Positions 1,613 through 15,497 of a stretch of 17,125 nucleotides of DNA are shown here, one piece after another. Each line of letters opens with the position of its first letter. The stretch's first letter is position 1. The notes beneath the pieces are model-generated. The model was not told the origin of the DNA. It did not search any database and saw only the letters and a list, made by a program, of their open reading frames with translations. Origin of the DNA: a bacterium (lineage in GTDB: Bacteria > JAJVIF01 > JAGGVT01); assembly GCA_021157815.1 (NCBI GenBank), contig JAGGVT010000148.1, positions 1 to 17,125 of the forward strand. The letters are read 5' to 3'. The position numbers were made by a program, and so were the translations under genes.

Positions 1613-4459
1613 TCAATTAACAAACCTTGTGTGCCAGACCCCCCTGCCGGCATCAATATCGTTGTTCCACCAGACAACATGAATGCGTCCCAAATCATCA
1701 ACGGCAATTCCCGGATCCTCCTGATTTCCGATGATACCGTCGCCGTACAGTTGCAAATCCTGATGGAATGTTTGTCCATAATCGTCAGTATAGTCATACC
1801 AGATATTATTGTAGTCGCCGACTTCCGCTTGCCGATTATCTGTCCAGACAAAATGAATCCTGTGATTTTGATCGACCGCGATATTTACTGAATGGACAAT
1901 AAAGGAACCTGGAAACTGCGTGTCGGACACGATAACAGGAGCATCCCAGTTATCGCCGTTGTCATGGCTGACTATAAGCATCAAATCGACAAACGGCGAC
2001 ATGGTGTCAATATGCTGGTACGCGACAAACACTTTATCGCCGTCAACAGCGGTTGCCACCCATTTTTCGGAAAAGTCGTCAGGCGTTTCGTTTATCCGCA
2101 CAACATCCCTTGTGATTGAACTGCCGTCAGGCGCAATGCGGCAATACATCGTGCCGTAATAGTAAATCGGCAAGCTTGCACTTAGCGCTTTTGTAAATGC
2201 CAGATGGATATTGCCGTCATCATCAACCGCAGCGGATTGGCACGGGAATCTCGCTAAATCAGCCGTCATTCCTGATGTATCAATATTAATCGGCGCATCC
2301 TGAAAAGATTGTGTCGGCAACGCCCTGTGAAAATAGTTAAGCGTACTAATTCCGCTGGGACCGGAAAAATCAACCATCTCAAAGAAAATGAACATATGGT
2401 CATTCGCGCCGTATATCATGTCGGTATCGACAATAAAATGCGGATTAGTGTTCTCCTCAAGAGACTCACCCGGATACCATGTTGAACTGTCCGGTGAGCG
2501 GCTTAGAAGCATCCATGTACGTTGAGGATTAACCACATCGTTATCGAAATACAGGCATGCCAATTCACCTGTTGAAGCAAAATCAAATCCGCCTATATGC
2601 TGACTGTACGGAGACTCAAGATCTTGTGTAATCAAGATGGGATTTGAATACGTTGAGCCGTAATCATCGCTGACAAGAACATACCGCTCACCTTCTGCAT
2701 TTCCACCGACAGGAATATAGACGTTTAAACCATCAATTCGAATCGGGTTATGCGCACCGTAATACAGGTTGCCGCAATCGCTTCCGACTGGCTGGATTAA
2801 TCGCGGCTCGATATTCGACGGGTCGTTCATCACGATTACATATTTGTATGTTATATCGTTCATGATTGGAATTGTGTTGTCCGTTACACGAAGCGCTATC
2901 CTGTATGTTCCCGGAATGGAATAGCTCCATGCTCCCTGCGATGATGTATGTCCCGGCTGGGGATTAAATGTTTCGACATCATATTGGAAATCCCATTCGT
3001 AAGTTGTGATGCTGCCATCGACATCATACGAATCGGTTGCGTCATAATCGATATCCTCATCGCGCCCGATGTAAATCGGGTCACCCGGAGGCGATGTTGT
3101 AAATCTGGCGACAGGCGACACATTCTGCAATGCGGTAACCACCGCGTTGAGATAGTAATACGTTCTAAATCCGGGAACCTCAAACGGGACAAGCCCGAAT
3201 CCCGAGTTGCGGATGCCATCCTCGGGCATTGACACATTGCCGCCGGTTTCGCGTTCATCAAGCACACAGACAAGACCGTCATAAATACCGGATGGCGCTC
3301 CGAGTTCATTATAGATTTCAAGCCGGTATTCAAACGGAGTAAGATACTGTCCTGTTCCACCTGTGTCATAAACGCTTTTGGAAACCGTACCGGAAAACAA
3401 TCCGGGAAATTCAACGCTGACCTCAGCGACACCACTTTGCGCGCGGATTTTATCGAGCGAACTTAACGTCAAATCAACAACAGCTCCCTGCTGCCAGTCC
3501 CATACTTTTACTTTTATTTCAGCCATCGATTCAGTTTCACCGGGACCAAGGCTGTTCGATTCGACATAAGCCTCAACTCGCCATGCTTCTTTCGCGTTAA
3601 ACTCAGGAATGTAATATGTCGGCTCAAGGCGGTATGTATAATCAATCGCGCTCTGGCCATAGTTTGCTGTTAAATAGAGTTTAAGTGAGATGCTTTCACC
3701 CGGGTCCAAATCCAGAAGAAGAAAATCATCAGAACTTTCACCCTGATTCATTACATTATGCCCGGATGCGTTTGCCAGGTCTGAAAATCCTGTGGGTGAA
3801 AGTGGGTCAACATTACCCTCCAGCGGATTCTTAAAAAGGATAATATATGGATGAGTGTCGTTTGGCCTGTTACCGATCTGGTCATAAACAGGCTCAATCA
3901 TGTCGGTGTAGCCATCGGCATTTAGCACTATGGTTGAACTGACAGTCCTGCCAAGTTCCGGAAATTCGATTCCATCGCCATCCTTATCGATCACAATAAG
4001 TTTCGAATCAAACACCCGGACATCATCGCGGTTTCTCGCATCCGGCGGCTGGCTGGAGTCACCTTTTTCAAACGGATGAGTTGTGTGTATCGCCACCTTG
4101 ACCCATTCCTGGGATGTTAGGGAAATTCCGCTCACTGCCAGGCAATCAACGCATGGTTTCGCAATGAAGAATTTCGTCATTTCAACAAACCATGAATCGC
4201 CGACATCATCAAGTGTCCTGACAGGAGTGATTTCAGCCGACTGCAAATCGGAGGAGATATTCAGGTCATAGACGCCAAGAACAAATCCGCCTGATTGCAT
4301 ATCGTTGATACGAGACGGGATATCATCCGCGTTCGGCATATTCAGGCCGGTTTCAACAGGCGATGTTCCGCCCGAACATCCGATTGATGAAATCATGAGA
4401 ATTGCAGATAGACCCGCTGTCAGAAGGAATCGATTGGATTTTGCAAACAGATGTGCCAT
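1613..4459 (-). CDS. large surface lipoprotein with PKD domain and sialidase-like Asp-box repeats
   Basis: The 948-residue protein begins with a signal peptide (residues 1-28) ending in MISSIGCSGG, a plausible lipobox with Cys as lipidation site, so it is predicted to be membrane-anchored outside the cytoplasm. Residues 30-440 are an unrecognised beta-rich region with a CVDC pair near 103. A PKD domain follows at about 450-545 (TTYEWDF, then SIPGTYRIALRVTDN). The C-terminal 350 residues carry repeated Asp-box motifs (VSDDYGSTY, VSHDNGDNW, TDDYGQTF) and HFVW/HVVW strands, as in BNR/sialidase-type beta-propellers. No sialidase active-site arginine triad was verified, so binding or scaffolding is as likely as catalysis. 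The frame is open upstream to 4579, but ATG 4459 has SD GAGGTGAG and the signal peptide starts right there. The architecture is clear; the function is unknown. Confidence 0.85.
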   Translation of the reverse strand: MAHLFAKSNRFLLTAGLSAILMISSIGCSGGTSPVETGLNMPNADDIPSRINDMQSGGFVLGVYDLNISSDLQSAEITPVRTLDDVGDSWFVEMTKFFIAKPCVDCLAVSGISLTSQEWVKVAIHTTHPFEKGDSSQPPDARNRDDVRVFDSKLIVIDKDGDGIEFPELGRTVSSTIVLNADGYTDMIEPVYDQIGNRPNDTHPYIILFKNPLEGNVDPLSPTGFSDLANASGHNVMNQGESSDDFLLLDLDPGESISLKLYLTANYGQSAIDYTYRLEPTYYIPEFNAKEAWRVEAYVESNSLGPGETESMAEIKVKVWDWQQGAVVDLTLSSLDKIRAQSGVAEVSVEFPGLFSGTVSKSVYDTGGTGQYLTPFEYRLEIYNELGAPSGIYDGLVCVLDERETGGNVSMPEDGIRNSGFGLVPFEVPGFRTYYYLNAVVTALQNVSPVARFTTSPPGDPIYIGRDEDIDYDATDSYDVDGSITTYEWDFQYDVETFNPQPGHTSSQGAWSYSIPGTYRIALRVTDNTIPIMNDITYKYVIVMNDPSNIEPRLIQPVGSDCGNLYYGAHNPIRIDGLNVYIPVGGNAEGERYVLVSDDYGSTYSNPILITQDLESPYSQHIGGFDFASTGELACLYFDNDVVNPQRTWMLLSRSPDSSTWYPGESLEENTNPHFIVDTDMIYGANDHMFIFFEMVDFSGPSGISTLNYFHRALPTQSFQDAPINIDTSGMTADLARFPCQSAAVDDDGNIHLAFTKALSASLPIYYYGTMYCRIAPDGSSITRDVVRINETPDDFSEKWVATAVDGDKVFVAYQHIDTMSPFVDLMLIVSHDNGDNWDAPVIVSDTQFPGSFIVHSVNIAVDQNHRIHFVWTDNRQAEVGDYNNIWYDYTDDYGQTFHQDLQLYGDGIIGNQEDPGIAVDDLGRIHVVWWNNDIDAGRGVWHTRFVN

Positions 4460-4683: not shown

Positions 4684-5961
4684 CTACGGAAAGATTCCCC
4701 TTTCCTTGTAGACGATTTCAAGTCGCATAAGCGCAACGATATAAGCTGCCGTTCTCCAGTCAGTATGATATTCTTCCGCAACTTCTCTTACATGGCTGTA
4801 TGCTTTAACAATTTTCTTCTTGAGTTTGCAGTCAACCTCATCGAGTTCCCAGTATTCACTGTGCTTGTTCTGAAGCCATTCGAAATAGCTGACAATTACT
4901 CCACCGGAATTACAAAGAATATCCGGGATAAGAGCAATATCCCTGTCCGCGAGGATTGAATCGCCGTCAGGGTCGGTAGGCCCGTTCGCGCCCTCGGCAA
5001 CGAGTTTTACATTCAGATACGGCGCCGTTTCAGCGGTTATCTGATTTTCCAATGCGGCTGGAATGAAAATATCGCAGTGGGTTTGCATGAATTCAACATG
5101 ATTGATTGGTTCTGAATGAAGGTATCCGGCAGAGCCGCCCAAATCCTTCACATAAGATGCAAGGTCATCCGCATCTATACCATCCGGATTGGCAATCGCA
5201 CCGGTAACATCCTCAACAGCAACCAGTTTCGCGCCAAGTTCTTTCATAAGACGCGCAGCCCATGATCCAACTTTTCCAAAGCCCTGAACTATGTATGTCG
5301 CTCCTTTCAGATCGAAATCATTGTCTTTTGCCCATTCCTGGATACAAAAAACAACGCCTTGGCCTGTGGCTTTGTCCCGACCAAGACTGCCGCCTGATTC
5401 AACAGGTTTGCCGGTAACAACATGAATATTCCCTTGCCTTTCCTGCGGTGGAATGGTTGAGAGATATGTGTCAAGCAACCATGCCATAATCTGTCCGTTG
5501 GTGTTGACATCGGGAGCGGGAATATCATAGTCCGGTCCGATATTGTTTCCCAGTGCATAGGTGAACCGCCTTGTGATTCTCTCAAGTTCAGTAATGCTGT
5601 ATTTGCCCGGGTCAATCTGAATGCCGCCCTTGCTGCCGCCAAACGGAATATCTGTTATGGCGCTTTTCCATGTCATCCAAGTTGCAAGTGCGCGAACCTC
5701 ATTGAGTTCGACATTTGGATGGAATCTGAGGCCACCCTTGTATGGGCCAAGCGTATTGTTATGCTGAACCCTGTAGCCGGTGAAAATCTCAATTCGACCA
5801 TCATCCATCTTGACCGGGAAATGAACCGTAATCTCGTTGTTGGTGGACCTGAGAATTTTACTTATGCTGTCGTCCAGTCCGATGATGTCAGCCGCCTTGT
5901 TGAACTGCCGTATTACATTGTCATAGACGTTTCGTTTTTGTTTTTTAACAAGAGTTGTCAT
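4684..5961 (-). CDS. gdhA: glutamate dehydrogenase (Glu/Leu/Phe/Val dehydrogenase family)
   Basis: This 425-residue cytoplasmic enzyme interconverts glutamate and 2-oxoglutarate plus ammonia with NAD(P), linking nitrogen assimilation or amino-acid catabolism to the TCA cycle. The glutamate-binding and catalytic motifs are intact: GPYKGGLRFHP with Lys75, FGGSKGGI with catalytic Lys111, and PAPDV with Asp151. The Rossmann motif QGFGKVG is at 226-232 and the C-terminal CNSGGV near 350. Length is that of the hexameric bacterial/archaeal small-subunit enzymes. Cofactor choice cannot be read with confidence, and leucine dehydrogenase activity is unlikely given the motifs. SD AGGAG lies 8 nt before ATG 5961. 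It lies 64 nt behind the small Cys-module gene with no terminator between them, so both probably depend on the sigma-54 promoter at 6444-6460. A strong hairpin follows at 4618-4656. Confidence 0.95.
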   Translation of the reverse strand: MTTLVKKQKRNVYDNVIRQFNKAADIIGLDDSISKILRSTNNEITVHFPVKMDDGRIEIFTGYRVQHNNTLGPYKGGLRFHPNVELNEVRALATWMTWKSAITDIPFGGSKGGIQIDPGKYSITELERITRRFTYALGNNIGPDYDIPAPDVNTNGQIMAWLLDTYLSTIPPQERQGNIHVVTGKPVESGGSLGRDKATGQGVVFCIQEWAKDNDFDLKGATYIVQGFGKVGSWAARLMKELGAKLVAVEDVTGAIANPDGIDADDLASYVKDLGGSAGYLHSEPINHVEFMQTHCDIFIPAALENQITAETAPYLNVKLVAEGANGPTDPDGDSILADRDIALIPDILCNSGGVIVSYFEWLQNKHSEYWELDEVDCKLKKKIVKAYSHVREVAEEYHTDWRTAAYIVALMRLEIVYKERGIFP

Positions 5962-6025: not shown

Positions 6026-6370
6026 TTATGCATACTCCTCACAATGCCAGATTCCACTCTCCGGCTTGTTGATTTTACATTCATGCCGTTTTTCGCAGTT
6101 GACACAAAGTCCCTTGAAGTTCTCTGTATCAGCCTGTTCTGATTCAGTCCGCGGTTCTGCCACAGCGGTTGTTGCTGTTTCAGCCTCAATGGTTTCAAAT
6201 TCGTTGCAATGAAAAATCGGCTCAGTGTGGTTTCTCAGATATGCGCATCCGGCGGAATGTTTGCATGTAGAGCAGATTCCTAAAACGTTGTCCTCAATGC
6301 CGTCAAAATCAGGAACTCCATCCTTGCGGATTTCGGCGATTTGCTCTTTTAGTTCGTGAATATTTGTCAT
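6026..6370 (-). CDS. small protein with two tandem CxxCx5Cx11-12C metal-binding-type modules
   Basis: The 114-residue soluble protein has two copies of one module: Cys33-x2-Cys36-x5-Cys42-x12-Cys55 (preceded by GI, ending HCNEF) and Cys89-x2-Cys92-x5-Cys98-x11-Cys110 (preceded by GL, ending HCEEY). They are joined by a low-complexity acidic linker (about 58-84, rich in Glu, Thr and Ala). The N-terminal 30 residues are helical-looking. Four regularly spaced Cys per module suggest a zinc or iron-sulfur site; His54 and His109 precede the last Cys of each. I recognise no named family. SD AGGAG is 7 nt before ATG 6370. It is the first gene behind the sigma-54 promoter at 6444-6460 and lies 64 nt before glutamate dehydrogenase. 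A redox- or metal-dependent partner role beside that enzyme is inference from position. Confidence 0.85.
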   Translation of the reverse strand: MTNIHELKEQIAEIRKDGVPDFDGIEDNVLGICSTCKHSAGCAYLRNHTEPIFHCNEFETIEAETATTAVAEPRTESEQADTENFKGLCVNCEKRHECKINKPESGIWHCEEYA

Positions 6371-6443
6371 GGTATTACTCCTTGCTTTGTTTTAATGTTA
6401 ATTCAACTGCCATCATTTCTTAGGCGTTTACGATTTCTTATAG

Positions 6444-6460
6444 AGCAACCGTTATGCCAA
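6444..6460 (-). promoter_or_regulatory. sigma-54 (RpoN) promoter of the Cys-module/glutamate dehydrogenase operon
   Basis: The minus strand reads TTGGCATAACGGTTGCT, matching the RpoN consensus TGGCAC-N5-TTGCW, with GG at 6458-6457 and GC at 6446-6445 separated by exactly 10 nt. Transcription would start near 6433, leaving a leader of about 63 nt before ATG 6370. The adjacent gene upstream encodes a sigma-54 activator. Confidence 0.8.
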
Positions 6461-6646
6461 AACGGAGAATTTGTGAAATATTTCTCAAAGTTTTCGCAAA
6501 ATTCTCTGGAAACCACTAAATATGAGGAGTTTCAGGCTATATTAAAACCTGAAATTTTAATTCAAGCAGAAAATTAGGTCTTATTTGAGTGGCTATTTCC
6601 GGGGATTCCAGAACCACCGGGGAGAAATTCCCCAGCTGATAAATTT

Positions 6647-6667
6647 AATTTGTACCCGGTACGAATT
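6647..6667. promoter_or_regulatory. palindromic operator/enhancer copy 1 (proximal)
   Basis: A 21-bp palindrome centred on C6657 around TTTGTACCCGGTACGAA, with one T/G imperfection. The centre lies about 210 bp upstream of the -12 element of the sigma-54 promoter. It shares its core with the second copy, 119 bp further upstream. Confidence 0.6.
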
Positions 6668-6761
6668 TATTTTAGAGACTTTTTCAACTTGAGGGATTTG
6701 GCAAAATCTATGGAATAGATGATGAATACTACAATGACGTGGATAACTGTCAAATTGGCCA

Positions 6762-6790
6762 AATTAATTCGTACCCGGTACGAATTAATT
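6762..6790. promoter_or_regulatory. palindromic operator/enhancer copy 2 (distal)
   Basis: A perfect 29-bp palindrome (14-bp arms) centred on C6776 around TTCGTACCCGGTACGAA. The block CGAATTAATT is then repeated once more at 6791-6800. Its centre is about 330 bp upstream of the sigma-54 promoter and about 100 bp past the end of the NtrC-type regulator gene. Confidence 0.65.
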
Positions 6791-6815: not shown

Positions 6816-6850
6816 ATCGTAGGGGTGGGTTTTAAAACCACCCCTACGAT
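6816..6850. repeat. perfect hairpin repeat after the response regulator gene
   Basis: Arms ATCGTAGGGGTGG (6816-6828) and its exact complement (6838-6850) enclose the loop GTTTTAAAA. It starts 26 nt past the regulator's stop codon. There is no T run on the minus-strand side, so it is a weak terminator candidate at best; it looks like a dispersed palindromic repeat. Confidence 0.7.
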
Positions 6851-6875: not shown

Positions 6876-8225
6876 TTAATCTTCGATTTTATACTTCTTT
6901 AATTTTTCCCTGAGCGTCTTACGGTCAATACCCAGCACCTCTGCGGCGCGAGTTTTATTTCCCTTTACATTCTGCAAGACATTTCGAATATATTCCGCCT
7001 GTATTTCAGCGAGTGTCCGGTTGAATCCGGCGCCGCTTAACGCAGAGAAATGCATTAGTGACGGCAGGTCGGCAACATCAATCTGTTCACCCTCGTTCAC
7101 AACTATCAATCGCTGGATAACATTCTCAAGTTCACGAACATTTCCGGGCCAGTGATAGCTGCACAAAGTTTTAATAGCTTTATCAGAAAATTCCATAACA
7201 GGCTTGCCAAATTCATCCGCATATTTTGAGGCAAAATACCTTGTCAACAACAAAATATCGTTTCCCCGTTCCCTGAGAGGTGGGATTGGAATCATAATTA
7301 CATTCAACCGGAAAAAGAGGTCCTCTCGAAAAACACCCTTTTTCACGAGGCCTTGAAGGTCTTTGTTGGTGGCGGCGATAATTCTGACATCCACCTTTCT
7401 GGTACGGGATTCGCCAATCATGTTGACTTCTTTTTCCTGCAGCACCCTAAGCAGTTTGACCTGCATCGCCGTTGTGGTTTCACTAATTTCATCCAGGAAA
7501 ATCGTTCCGCCATCCGCAATCTGGAAGAATCCGGCTCTTGTTTCCGTAGCGCCGGTAAAAGATCCCTTTAAATGCCCAAACAGTTCACTCTCAAGCAAAC
7601 CTTCAGGAATACCGCCGCAATTCACAGGGACAAATTTAGCTGCGGCTCTTGGGCCATTATAATGTATCGCTCTTGCGACCAGTTCCTTTCCGGTTCCACT
7701 CTCACCCATGATAAGGACAGTAGCTGGAATCCCTGCGGTTTTTTTTATGGTTCTCAACACAACCTTCAGAGGTTCGGATTCGCCAATCATGCCATAATTT
7801 TCGACATCCTCGCAAAGGGAGTCATCCGAACACGCCAGTCTCGCACGCTGTTTTTCAAGAGATTTTTCAACCGCGGCATAAAGTTCCTCATCCGTGAACG
7901 GTTTGACAAGGTAATCCTCAGCGCCGGCTTTGACAGCCTCGACAGCGCCTCCGATTGATGGATACCCGGTTATTATAATTACTTCCATCTTCTTGTAATT
8001 TTCTCTGACATGCCTTACAAGGTCAAGACCGCTGACTTTAGGCATCTTGATATCCGTTATCACAAGATCAAAAGTGGATGATTCAAGAATTCGCAGCGCT
8101 TCAGGAACATCAGCGGCAGTATGGATAAGGCAACTTTTGTCCTGAAGATTTCTTTTTATCAACTCGCGAGTATCCTGCACATCATCAACAACAAGAATAT
8201 GTATTTCTTTCTTCTTCAATGCCAT
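6876..8225 (-). CDS. NtrC-family sigma-54-dependent response regulator
   Basis: The 449-residue activator has three domains in the standard order. The receiver domain (about 7-125) has the acidic pair DD14-15, phospho-acceptor Asp58 in DLVITDIKMP, and Lys108. The AAA+ sigma-54 interaction domain (about 145-375) has Walker A GESGTGKE at 174-181, the sigma-54 contact loop as GSFTGA (221-226, usually GAFTGA), Walker B TIFLDEI at 241-247, and GNVREL at 361-366. The Fis-type helix-turn-helix (about 405-446) includes NKTRAAEVLGIDRKTLREKL. Its ATG overlaps the kinase stop codon by 1 nt (TAATG), so the two are coupled and form one pathway. The gene points into the region with two long palindromes and an RpoN promoter, its likely target. 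The gene symbol is withheld because the signal is unknown. Confidence 0.95.
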   Translation of the reverse strand: MALKKKEIHILVVDDVQDTRELIKRNLQDKSCLIHTAADVPEALRILESSTFDLVITDIKMPKVSGLDLVRHVRENYKKMEVIIITGYPSIGGAVEAVKAGAEDYLVKPFTDEELYAAVEKSLEKQRARLACSDDSLCEDVENYGMIGESEPLKVVLRTIKKTAGIPATVLIMGESGTGKELVARAIHYNGPRAAAKFVPVNCGGIPEGLLESELFGHLKGSFTGATETRAGFFQIADGGTIFLDEISETTTAMQVKLLRVLQEKEVNMIGESRTRKVDVRIIAATNKDLQGLVKKGVFREDLFFRLNVIMIPIPPLRERGNDILLLTRYFASKYADEFGKPVMEFSDKAIKTLCSYHWPGNVRELENVIQRLIVVNEGEQIDVADLPSLMHFSALSGAGFNRTLAEIQAEYIRNVLQNVKGNKTRAAEVLGIDRKTLREKLKKYKIED

Positions 8226-9964
8226 TACAATTCATCCTTTTCATCCATGTCGCTTGAAATTGGGATTTTAACCTCAAACCGAGAGCCAACTCCCTCTTCG
8301 CTTGTTACCCTAATATCGCCTCCGTGCGATGTTACTATGCCGTGAACAACCGACAAGCCCAATCCGGTTCCCTGCCCGACATCCTTTGTCGTGAAAAAAG
8401 GATTGAAAATTTGAGGCAGCAATTCTCTGCTGATTCCAGCTCCGGTATCTTCAATAATTAATGATATATTATTTTCATCGAACTCTGTACTAATTATCAG
8501 TTTGCCTTCGCCATACAACGACTGAAGAGCATTTACCACAAGATTTACCAGCACTTGATGAAGCTGAGTCGGGTCTGCCGCGATAACGGGCAGATTGTCT
8601 GCAAGGTTAATTTCCAGTTCAATATTCTCCCTTGCGATTCGGGATTCAATAAAATACAAGCCTTCCCTGACAATTTTATTCAAATCAACCTTGTCTGTTT
8701 TCCCGGGCATCTGTCTTGCGAAGATCAGAAGTCTCTTGACAATCTCTCGCGCATGCAGGGAGGCATTAACAATCCTGTCAATATCCTCCTCCGATTGATT
8801 TGGCAAATCTCCCGCCTTTTTAATCAGCTGGGCAAAACCGAGAATCGAACCAAGAGGTTCATTCAGTTCATGCGCCACACCGGCCGCAAGCTGCCCTATG
8901 GTTGCGAGCCTGTCAGAATGGCGAAGCTGTTCCTGCAGCATTGCTTTGTATTTCGATGTTTCACGCTCTTCGATGATAAGCGATATTTCATGCGCAACTG
9001 TTTCAAGAAGCCTCTCCTCCTCTTTCAAAAACGGATCCGCGACAAATATTGGCTCTTCCTCCCTGTATGCAACTTCAATGAATCCACGATTGGAGTTGCT
9101 TACAACGAGATTCGCATTCCTGGTATATTTTGATGGCGAAAATCCCTTTGTAATGTAACTCTTCTTGTCAAATACTATTCTTGCCATTGCAATGCCGGGA
9201 TATTTCATTGCGGGAGGGAGCAACTCGACAAATGCCTGAAGAAGTTCCTCAAGAGTACGCCCTGGTTGGTTTACAATTTGTGATATCTCATAAAGGCATG
9301 TCAGTTCCTTAACACGTTCCACCATCGCGGCTCGAGTTCTCCTGTAAACCACGACCATGCCCAAAATCCGTGAAATGCCCTCGAAAAATTCAACTTCATT
9401 TTCCGTAAAGTGATATTTTTTCAGGCTCTTAAGTTGAAGTATCCCTTGATTGTTCTCATTAGTTTCAAACGGGATAAGTACAATGGAATTGTATCCCTCG
9501 CCAATATGAAAGCTGATCTGATTGCTTTCATCAGCATCAGGAAAAATAAAAGGATTTTCCGCATCGCCTGTCCAGAAACTGCCGTTGTTAGTAACACCTG
9601 GAAGATTATTATTCAATTGCCGTGCCAGCAAACTTATGCAGAAATTCGGATGATCCAGTTGCATTTCAATATTCATCAAATTATCAATATCACAGCAAAT
9701 CCGCGGCATCAATTCGTAGGTGAATGATTCATCCGGACTGAAAACCGCTTTCCAATAATACTGAGTGACATCCTCCTCAATACAGAATTCAACCACATCA
9801 CACCCGCAGAAATTTTGAATGACTGTTGACACACCCCGCAGGAATTCAATTCGAGTATTATCCTGGCCGGCAAACATAAGAATTCGCTGGGACAGCGCGA
9901 GAAAGTCCTCAACCATTTTATAGCTGGGAACAAGAATGTCTTTTCGTTTCGCTTTGTTATTCAT
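8225..9964 (-). CDS. soluble GAF-domain sensor histidine kinase
   Basis: The 579-residue kinase has no membrane segment or signal peptide, so it senses a cytoplasmic cue. A first GAF-type sensor region spans about 25-205 and contains clustered cysteines (NFCGCDVVEFC at 51-61, CC at 90-91, Cys109). A second GAF-like region lies at about 215-335 (LTCLYEISQIVNQPG). The HisKA domain carries phospho-acceptor His365 in AGVAHELNEPLG. The ATPase domain has the N box around Asn475-Asn478, EDTGAGIS at 505-512 and FFTTKDVGQGTGLGL at 523-537. All catalytic motifs are intact. It phosphorylates the overlapping NtrC-type regulator. SD GAAGGA is 3 nt before ATG 9964. A terminator for the gene before it (10055-10085) implies a separate promoter. 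Cysteines in the sensor could mean redox or metal sensing, but this is inference. Confidence 0.93.
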   Translation of the reverse strand: MNNKAKRKDILVPSYKMVEDFLALSQRILMFAGQDNTRIEFLRGVSTVIQNFCGCDVVEFCIEEDVTQYYWKAVFSPDESFTYELMPRICCDIDNLMNIEMQLDHPNFCISLLARQLNNNLPGVTNNGSFWTGDAENPFIFPDADESNQISFHIGEGYNSIVLIPFETNENNQGILQLKSLKKYHFTENEVEFFEGISRILGMVVVYRRTRAAMVERVKELTCLYEISQIVNQPGRTLEELLQAFVELLPPAMKYPGIAMARIVFDKKSYITKGFSPSKYTRNANLVVSNSNRGFIEVAYREEEPIFVADPFLKEEERLLETVAHEISLIIEERETSKYKAMLQEQLRHSDRLATIGQLAAGVAHELNEPLGSILGFAQLIKKAGDLPNQSEEDIDRIVNASLHAREIVKRLLIFARQMPGKTDKVDLNKIVREGLYFIESRIARENIELEINLADNLPVIAADPTQLHQVLVNLVVNALQSLYGEGKLIISTEFDENNISLIIEDTGAGISRELLPQIFNPFFTTKDVGQGTGLGLSVVHGIVTSHGGDIRVTSEEGVGSRFEVKIPISSDMDEKDEL

Positions 9965-14071: not shown

Positions 14072-14142
14072 AGTTAAAGGTAGAGAAAGTTCTTGACATG
14101 TTAAAGAATGTATGGTAATATTGTCTTAGTTAATGGTAGAGA
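14072..14142 (+). promoter_or_regulatory. strong sigma-70 promoter bracketed by 15-bp direct repeats
   Basis: TTGACA (14093-14098), a 17-nt spacer and TAATAT (14116-14121) form a near-ideal promoter for the transposase fragment and P63C genes. The direct repeats AGTTAAAGGTAGAGA (14072-14086) and AGTTAATGGTAGAGA (14128-14142) differ at one base and flank it at a 56-bp period, as operator pairs do. Confidence 0.65.
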
Positions 14143-14164
14143 TAATTTAGGGCGGGGGGATAAG

Positions 14165-14584
14165 ATGAATATCATACAAGTTTATCAACGGTTTCCATCA
14201 CATGAATCGTGCCTTAAACACCTTGAAAAGATAAGGTGGCACGGCAAGCCCGTTTGCCCTTATTGCAAGTCTGATAATTCATCGCCACTTCCAAAAGAAC
14301 TCAGGCATCATTGCAACACATGCAATACTTCTTACAGCGTTACAGTTGGAACTATATTCCATAAGACTAAAATCGACCTGCAAAAATGGTTTGCGGCAAT
14401 CTCACTTGTTTTGAATGCTAAAAAGGAAATTAGTTCGAGACAGCTGGCTGTACATATTGAAGTGAATAAAAATACAGGTTGGTATTTGACCATGAGGATA
14501 AGACGCGCACTGGCAGAACAACCTGGTTTATTACAAAGAATTGTTGAAGATAAGGAAGCGTATATTGGCGGTAAAACTAACTAA
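14165..14584 (+). CDS. IS1595-type transposase fragment (zinc ribbon plus helix-turn-helix, catalytic domain missing)
   Basis: The 139-residue protein matches the N-terminal half of IS1595/ISXO2-type transposases. It has a zinc ribbon with Cys31-x2-Cys34 and Cys50-x2-Cys53, the stretch SVTVGTIFHKTKIDLQKWF, then a helix-turn-helix (about 86-115, SSRQLAVHIEVNKNTGWYL). It stops right after EAYIGGKTN, where full transposases (about 300 residues) continue from VDETYIGG into the DDE nuclease domain. The first catalytic Asp position reads Lys. It therefore cannot transpose DNA but should still bind DNA. ATG 14165 follows a G-rich ribosome site. An upstream in-frame ATG at 14108 overlaps the promoter and is less likely. 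The P63C gene begins 31 nt later, so the pair looks like one operon. It is either a decayed transposon or a domesticated DNA-binding protein. Confidence 0.82.
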   Translation: MNIIQVYQRFPSHESCLKHLEKIRWHGKPVCPYCKSDNSSPLPKELRHHCNTCNTSYSVTVGTIFHKTKIDLQKWFAAISLVLNAKKEISSRQLAVHIEVNKNTGWYLTMRIRRALAEQPGLLQRIVEDKEAYIGGKTN

Positions 14585-14615
14585 AAATCAAAACCTGGGT
14601 CTTGGGGAATTTAAC

Positions 14616-15497
14616 ATGACTGAGAAAATTTTAAGAGCAATTTGGGGTTCACCTGACAAACCGCTAATTCTGGCCGGGTTTGAAATTCCCTGTTATGTTC
14701 TTGAGGACGGAACAAGAGTATTATCCGTCAAAGGCATGCAGGCGGCACTATCACTGGGGCAAAGCAATGGTGCGGCTTTCATGAATTTAATTGGGCAAAA
14801 AAACATCAAACCCTTTATTAATGAGCATTTAGCCAGGACGCTATCTAATCCAATCAGGTTTATAAGGCCTGGGCATGGTGGCAGGCCGGCTTTAAGCTAT
14901 GAGGCAACTGTCCTGGCGGATATCTGCAACTCGCTATTGAAAGCGGGAAAAGAGGGTCAATTAACGTTATCCCAACAAAGAATTGCAGACCATTGCGAAA
15001 TGCTTTCCAGAGCTTTCACAAATGATGGTTTAATAGCTTTAATTGATAAAATAACCGGATATCAAGAAGTAAGGCATCGCGATTTACTTCAAGAAATTAT
15101 CAAGAAGTACATTACAAAAGATTTAATGAAGTGGCAAAAACGTTTTCCTGATGAGTTTTACAGGCAAATTTTCAGGTTAAAAAATTGGTCATGGCGAGGT
15201 AAGGATTTTAATCCTTCCCCGATTGTTGGGAAATATATAAATGATGTTGTTTATGAAAGATTAGCTCCCGCTGTGTTGCAAGATCTGAAAAAAGTTAATC
15301 CGCCTGATAAGAAAAGAGGAGGTGAACAGCATCATGGATGGTTAACTGAAGAGGTTGGCCACCCGAAGCTCAGAGACCATCTCATGGGCATTATTGCTTT
15401 AATGAGAGCAGCGCCTAACTGGCCTTCTTTTAAACGTATGCTTGAACGAGCATATCCTAAAAAGGGAGATACAATCGACTTTTTTAATAAGTATTGA
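14616..15497 (+). CDS. P63C-domain protein (phage-associated family, function unknown)
   Basis: The 293-residue soluble protein starts with an antirepressor-like N-terminal segment (IPCYVLEDGTRVLSVKGMQAA, about 24-44), continues with a basic central part (RPGHGGRPALSYEATVLADIC), and ends with the P63C domain (about 165-260: WQKRFPDEFYRQIFRLKNWSW, then YERLAPAVLQDLKKVNP, HHGWLTEEVGHPKLRDHLMG). P63C proteins are known from phages and many bacterial accessory regions, without an established biochemical role. ATG 14616 is preceded by GGGG at 9 nt. The frame is open 75 nt further upstream but overlaps the transposase fragment. Expression probably depends on the promoter at 14093-14121, and a hairpin follows at 15510-15529. 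Position suggests an accessory or mobile-element cassette, perhaps regulatory or defensive; this is inference. Confidence 0.85.
   Translation: MTEKILRAIWGSPDKPLILAGFEIPCYVLEDGTRVLSVKGMQAALSLGQSNGAAFMNLIGQKNIKPFINEHLARTLSNPIRFIRPGHGGRPALSYEATVLADICNSLLKAGKEGQLTLSQQRIADHCEMLSRAFTNDGLIALIDKITGYQEVRHRDLLQEIIKKYITKDLMKWQKRFPDEFYRQIFRLKNWSWRGKDFNPSPIVGKYINDVVYERLAPAVLQDLKKVNPPDKKRGGEQHHGWLTEEVGHPKLRDHLMGIIALMRAAPNWPSFKRMLERAYPKKGDTIDFFNKY

Follow-up and report, generated by a model that had tools for sequence, protein, structure and literature searches.

Layout and conservation of the locus

The locus lies in a window of 17,125 nucleotides (the whole stretch of DNA that was analyzed), and all its parts are on the minus strand, running from high to low coordinates. 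It starts with a soluble sensor histidine kinase of 579 amino acids (8225-9964), which combines a GAF-like N-terminus with HisKA and HATPase_c domains (Pfam) and in which no hydrophobic segment was found (maximum 19-residue Kyte-Doolittle mean of 1.19). The kinase gene overlaps by 1 nt with that of an NtrC-family response regulator/sigma-54 activator of 449 amino acids (6876-8225). The regulator consists of receiver, AAA+, and Fis-type HTH domains (Pfam Response_reg, Sigma54_activat, and HTH_8, all over the cut-off) and carries the loop GSFTGA. The pair lies directly upstream of the promoter region on the same strand, which verifies its description in an earlier note on this DNA. The regulator gene is separated by a gap of 0.5 kb from the gene of an unnamed 8-Cys protein (114 amino acids, 6026-6370, with the ribosome-binding site AAGGAG, graded good), hereafter the Cys protein. 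Situated in this gap are a predicted enhancer (UAS) formed by the tandem dyads GGGGAATTTCTCCCC and TGGTTCTGGAATCCCC (6599-6636), proposed from its conservation, its leave-out score, and its single copy in the home genome, and a sigma-54 -24/-12 promoter with exact consensus (6444-6460), which is kept in the corresponding gaps of relatives.

The last gene encodes a glutamate dehydrogenase (GDH) of 425 amino acids (4684-5961) of the archaeal/halobacterial-like hexameric type. Pfam recognizes it as ELFV_dehydrog (7.4e-72), with both the N-terminal dimerization domain (PF02812) and the C-terminal NAD(P) domain (PF00208) present, and it matches GdhA_Arch at 9.2e-141, yet under the cut-off. Its start lies 64 nt past the Cys gene, and a terminator scan found no terminator-like site between the two. 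Two more ELFV dehydrogenase genes lie on opposite strands of a single contig (G000:C23:10079-13871), where genome searches found no copy of the Cys protein or of the UAS. The window contains zero Rfam RNA families. Just past the stop codon of the regulator, a strong 17-bp inverted repeat (94%; 6816-6850) that lacks a T-run may mark the end of a transcript or be one more repeat. At 14108-15497, the N-terminus of an IS1595-type transposase (zinc ribbon only) overlaps a P63C-domain gene, an arrangement that reads as an insertion element which either is broken or has itself received an insertion.

Of the four genomes of the home phylum that were sampled, two belong to relatives of a different family that also have the regulator. 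Their syntenic regulator orthologs are 61% identical to that of the window and stand directly ahead of the Cys protein, although in one of them (G003) only the end of the regulator is on the same contig. The next genes in both relatives are NuoE-, NuoF-, NuoG-, and GltS-like rather than a GDH, and NuoF is fused to GltD in one of them. A wider scan, with one genome per species and the Cys protein alone as query, delivered 80 loci, whose counts are not independent (L126, L127, L129, and L141, for example, are near-copies). They are found in Planctomycetota, Zixibacteria, WOR-3, Omnitrophota, Coatesbacteria, Bacteroidales, Spirochaetes, Gemmatimonadetes, Latescibacterota, Cloacimonadota, Calditrichaeota, Deltaproteobacteria, and others, amounting to more than 10 phyla. 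Where enough sequence was available, the regulator is located directly upstream of the Cys gene in 63 of 73 loci, and both kinase and regulator are upstream in 57 of 66.

The gene that follows is variable. Across 75 loci, a close GDH lies downstream of the Cys gene in 12, another ELFV dehydrogenase in 5, and a NuoE cluster in 51. Single loci add a second hexameric type, the E. coli-type NADP-GDH of L125, and the large NAD-GDH of L154, and no downstream enzyme was found at L124, L144, and L179. The NuoE cluster has the order NuoE-NuoF-GltD-NuoG-GltS and is glutamate-synthase-like. Its GltS protein gives a partial match to Pfam Glu_synthase, and its structural model (pLDDT 68, low) points to the general FMN-barrel superfamily only, with an Azospirillum glutamate synthase at rank 48; the glutamate-synthase assignment is one by family only. 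The downstream enzymes are non-orthologous, but each either forms glutamate or is homologous to an enzyme that does, and all of them are expected to make it.

The Cys protein and the regulator pair

The Cys protein is built from two C-X2-C-X5-C-X(11-12)-C modules, the second of which ends in WHCEEY, and all eight Cys are invariant across 58 aligned homologs. Profile searches of Pfam, NCBIfam, and PDB sequences gave no relatives above the cut-off, and AlphaFold2 (58 sequences) returned a model with a pLDDT of 65.8 and a pTM of 0.27. In four loci the Cys modules are fused to a NuoE-like subunit, either N-terminally (L108:5536-6477 and L170:7932-9152) or C-terminally (L164:8346-9263 and L177:7569-8483). 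Because of the two invariant 4-Cys modules and these NuoE-like fusions, the protein likely binds a metal or an Fe-S cluster, and it may act as an electron carrier, an assembly factor, or an enzyme regulator. GDHs need no electron carrier, and since the Cys protein is also found before GDHs, a regulatory role is favored. That it instead carries electrons as a subunit of the enzyme complex is a possibility to be taken seriously, if short of an even chance: all four fusions join it to a NuoE-like [2Fe-2S] subunit, the four Cys of each module could hold an Fe-S cluster, and C-X2-C-X5-C resembles the auxiliary cluster motifs of the SPASM type (weak TIGR04085 match, E 0.014). The occurrence before GDHs speaks against such a subunit, the low-confidence model (pLDDT 66) has no recognizable fold, and Zn would fit the modules equally well.

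The regulator has the domain layout of NtrC, and it could be argued that the locus simply encodes the organism's global nitrogen regulator, which adjoins gdh by chance. The regulator does match the NCBIfam ntrC model (TIGR01818) at 410.9 bits, and the neighboring genes concern nitrogen. Nonetheless, the regulator stays below the cut-off of 558.6 bits, which E. coli NtrC exceeds with 826.7, and the kinase scores 101.2 bits against NR(II) (NF008293), where the cut-off is 240 and E. coli NtrB reaches 700.8. Global NtrC identity was rejected on these equivalog cut-offs, and none of the other activators checked in the home genome reaches the NtrC cut-off. In a regulator tree whose E. coli rows sit on long branches, the regulators of the Cys loci group in a single clade (100/100) that excludes E. 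coli NtrC, AtoC, and ZraR, and 58 of 59 have a GAFTGA-type loop. The usual nitrogen sensor, P-II (PF00543), was found neither in the home genome, which is 90.9% complete, nor in the three relatives of the home phylum (one of them 99% complete). In a set of 42 genomes, made up of 38 carriers from the scan and the four of the home phylum, a P-II match is absent from 25, while it is present in 13 of 14 control genomes; some of these absences may be due to incomplete genomes and lineage effects. Furthermore, the home genome contains a single strong tandem site, and other genomes have about one each. The global-regulator explanation is therefore improbable, and the distinction that the earlier note drew between the circuit and global NtrB/NtrC is supported by the missed equivalog cut-offs and the P-II that was not found.

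Promoter, candidate enhancer, and dispersed repeats

On the minus strand, positions 6460 to 6444 read TTGGCATAACGGTTGCT, and 6444-6459 matches the sigma-54 consensus TGGCAYRN4TTGCW exactly, with a spacing of 10 nt between GG (6458-6457) and GC (6446-6445). The 3' end of the promoter is 74 nt ahead of the ATG of the Cys protein at 6370, and the transcription start is predicted near 6433, about 12 nt past the GC. The RpoN promoter is thereby borne out as the earlier note described it, in its GG-GC spacing of 10 nt as well as in its distance of 74 nt from the start of the Cys gene. The window holds no other exact match, and two sites with one mismatch were observed in it vs 0.79 expected. The home genome encodes one RpoN and seven strong Sigma54_activat proteins, and its 3.2 Mb hold seven exact matches vs two for the reversed pattern, a mild enrichment that makes the motif alone weak evidence. 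The other six exact matches have no common theme; one is ahead of a lipoprotein-like gene, and another far ahead of a citramalate/isopropylmalate-synthase-like gene.

What lifts the match beyond chance is its conservation at the corresponding position across other phyla. When the regulator-Cys gap, or otherwise the 500 bp ahead of the Cys gene, was scanned in 79 loci, the best sigma-54 match had no mismatch in 18, one in 46, and two in 14. Sites with at most one mismatch thus occur in 64 of 79 loci, whereas the opposite strand gives 1 of 79 and shuffles 0.55. Two relatives in the same class speak against the reading: the single mismatch in the G003 site hits the GC of the -12 element, and G002 has sites with two mismatches only.

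The tandem GGGGAAATTCTCCCC / TGGTTCAAATTTCCCC dyad at 6599-6636 has its center 158 bp upstream of the -24 element and so lies within the 80-200 bp from the promoter at which the NtrC family has its upstream dyads. The pattern GGGGA-N5-TCCCC is present in 19 of 81 gap regions vs at most 2 in shuffles (dyad count). An iterative matrix built on the gaps converged on two side-by-side dyads with the consensus accGGGGAAaTTCTCCCCggTGGTTCAAAttTCCCCg, which score above 20 in 72 of 81 regions, vs 1-2 when the same EM procedure was run on shuffled regions. With a matrix built without it, the UAS of the window scores 41.1, the maximum of 300 shuffles being 3.6. In most loci the UAS is found upstream of the promoter, usually by about 80-215 bp; it remains beside the promoter even where the regulator is 2.3 kb off (L121), and the two loci with two Cys operons (L137 and L165) have a separate UAS for each.

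At the genome level, in searches that could reveal only strong tandem sites as opposed to single dyads or weaker ones, the home genome has one tandem UAS at up to three mismatches, and 36 matches were counted in 33 of the 42 genomes, while the reversed control pattern gave 0. Two matches in one genome were found only in G054 (the genome of L165, with its two Cys operons), G058, and G019. The second match of G019 (contig C84) is probably chance, because a sigma-54 site is absent there. In G058 (contig C304, L216, about 1917-2150), the second tandem UAS has a sigma-54 site 200 bp downstream, but it is followed neither by a Cys gene nor by any obvious gene on the same strand; it may be a decayed copy or belong to a small RNA. 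The recognition helix of the regulator, GIDRKTLREKL, is kept along with the UAS. Taken together, a near-single UAS per genome and a co-conserved recognition helix are the trace expected of a dedicated, single-target activator, and the tandem dyad at 6599-6636 is likely the enhancer of the regulator.

Both elements also bear on the skeptical view that the promoter match and gene order reflect chance or an inherited neighborhood, with the operon being read by a housekeeping sigma factor. The mild enrichment of exact sigma-54 matches in the genome (7 vs 2) would suit that view, as would a sigma-70-like site (10/12) at 6753-6726, which is within shuffle expectation. Because promoter and UAS are kept over many phyla with a stereotyped spacing although the rest of the intergenic DNA differs, we regard it as very improbable.

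Two near-perfect palindromes, TTAATTYGTACCCGGTACRAATTAA, are also located in the gap (6642-6671 and 6761-6790), upstream of the UAS candidate, and leave both this candidate and the promoter intact. They belong to a REP-like repeat, TTAATTYGTACC(C)GGTACRAATTAA, with about 38 exact copies genome-wide (on contigs C5, C11, C18, C29, C31, C99, and C160 of G000, among others). The copies often form pairs spaced 119-131 bp apart, in which the internal DNA is related and falls into subfamilies, and several copies lie about 100-130 bp from contig ends; the copy of the window is 78% identical to that of L039 over 154 bp. At L047:3007-3964 (G000:C151), five copies flank a Y1/IS200-like transposase gene (3276-3944, RAYT-type), which is the probable mobilizer of the repeat. 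In their number, intergenic position, and pairing, and in flanking a Y1 transposase, the palindromes show the features of REP/RAYT systems. As near-perfect paired dyads between regulator and promoter, the GTACCCGGTAC palindromes were considered as the enhancer of the regulator and rejected, being a dispersed REP-like repeat; that they are the enhancer is hardly credible in view of about 38 genomic copies, some flanking an IS200-like transposase, and a conserved UAS motif that excludes their sequence.

A proposed circuit for glutamate formation

The most plausible reading, which we hold with considerable confidence on the basis of sequence comparison, is that the locus constitutes a self-contained switch for glutamate formation leading from kinase to regulator, UAS, sigma-54 promoter, and finally cys-gdh. 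A cytosolic signal, most likely the nitrogen/carbon or glutamate state, would act on the soluble GAF-type kinase, which would phosphorylate the regulator encoded beside it. The regulator would then bind the tandem GGGGA-N5-TCCCC-type site at 6599-6636 and, by looping of the DNA, activate the sigma-54 polymerase at the -24/-12 element (6444-6460). A short operon would be transcribed from near 6433, encoding first the 8-Cys protein and then the GDH. The Cys protein presumably binds a metal or an Fe-S cluster and acts as a partner or regulator of the enzyme that forms glutamate, and elsewhere among the phyla this switch would precede different glutamate-making enzymes. The earlier note had named conservation of promoter and gene order in advance as a test that could refute its proposal, and both are conserved across many phyla. 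Its self-contained local circuit, in which the adjacent regulator would control the GDH and the Cys protein, draws support from the conserved order, the promoter, and the UAS.

GDH is usually the high-ammonium enzyme and glutamate synthase the low-ammonium one. Because one switch appears to serve both a GDH and a glutamate-synthase-like cluster, we think that the signal is the demand for glutamate (e.g., the 2-oxoglutarate/glutamate state) rather than ammonium. Apparently, the circuit is a single-target, P-II-independent variant of the NtrC/sigma-54 theme. A broader interpretation is put forward tentatively: this would be a widespread P-II-free form of nitrogen control, in which a pair with one target per genome matches whichever of four unrelated glutamate-forming enzymes is present. 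The 8-Cys protein expressed along with that enzyme would be a subunit that senses metal or redox state and adjusts the enzyme, and would so be the counterpart, at the protein level, of the switch in transcription.

With NtrB/NtrC (GlnL/GlnG) of enterics, the locus shares a soluble kinase, a REC-AAA-HTH activator, a sigma-54 promoter, tandem upstream sites, and a target in nitrogen metabolism. It differs in that the pair are not NtrB/NtrC equivalogs, a GAF-like input replaces that of NtrB, the home genome is without P-II and the locus without glnA, one strong predicted target takes the place of a global regulon, and the site GGGGA-N5-TCCCC is a different one. Local two-component sigma-54 circuits that serve a neighboring operon are also represented by AtoS/AtoC and ZraS/ZraR, whose targets differ and from which the regulators of the Cys loci are set apart by clade. 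Ueki and Lovley are said to have described, in 2010, GnfL/GnfM of Geobacter as two-component nitrogen regulators, GnfM being an NtrC-type activator. Like the locus pair as read here, GnfL/GnfM and DVU3220 of Desulfovibrio, both from Deltaproteobacteria, are two-component nitrogen regulators, but they act on nif or amt-glnB genes. DVU3220, a nitrogen response regulator, binds the amt/glnB/glnD operon by EMSA (PMC3333781).

Glutamate synthase and GDH are both under sigma-54 control in Geobacter sulfurreducens, which offers a counterpart: its GOGAT operon (GSU1235-GSU1239) has a predicted RpoN promoter and its GDH is RpoN-dependent (PMC2725144). Hypothetical genes precede pyridine-nucleotide oxidoreductase, Fe-S, and glutamate-synthase-related genes in that operon, a feature shared with the Cys loci, and in the text consulted the operon is described without an activator, an enhancer, or a Cys protein (PMC2725144). 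In the literature, of which coverage was partial, the kinase/regulator family, the DNA site, the Cys protein, and their pairing were not found described. Part of the system may already be known under another name.

Many anaerobic candidate phyla are without P-II, and how glutamate synthesis is set there is the question on which this locus bears. It names a candidate regulator, DNA site, promoter, and target, together with a grammar of one site per genome. It also defines an unnamed protein family of two 4-Cys modules, which is tied to glutamate formation in more than 10 phyla and also occurs in fusions with the NuoE-like subunit of a glutamate-synthase-like complex.
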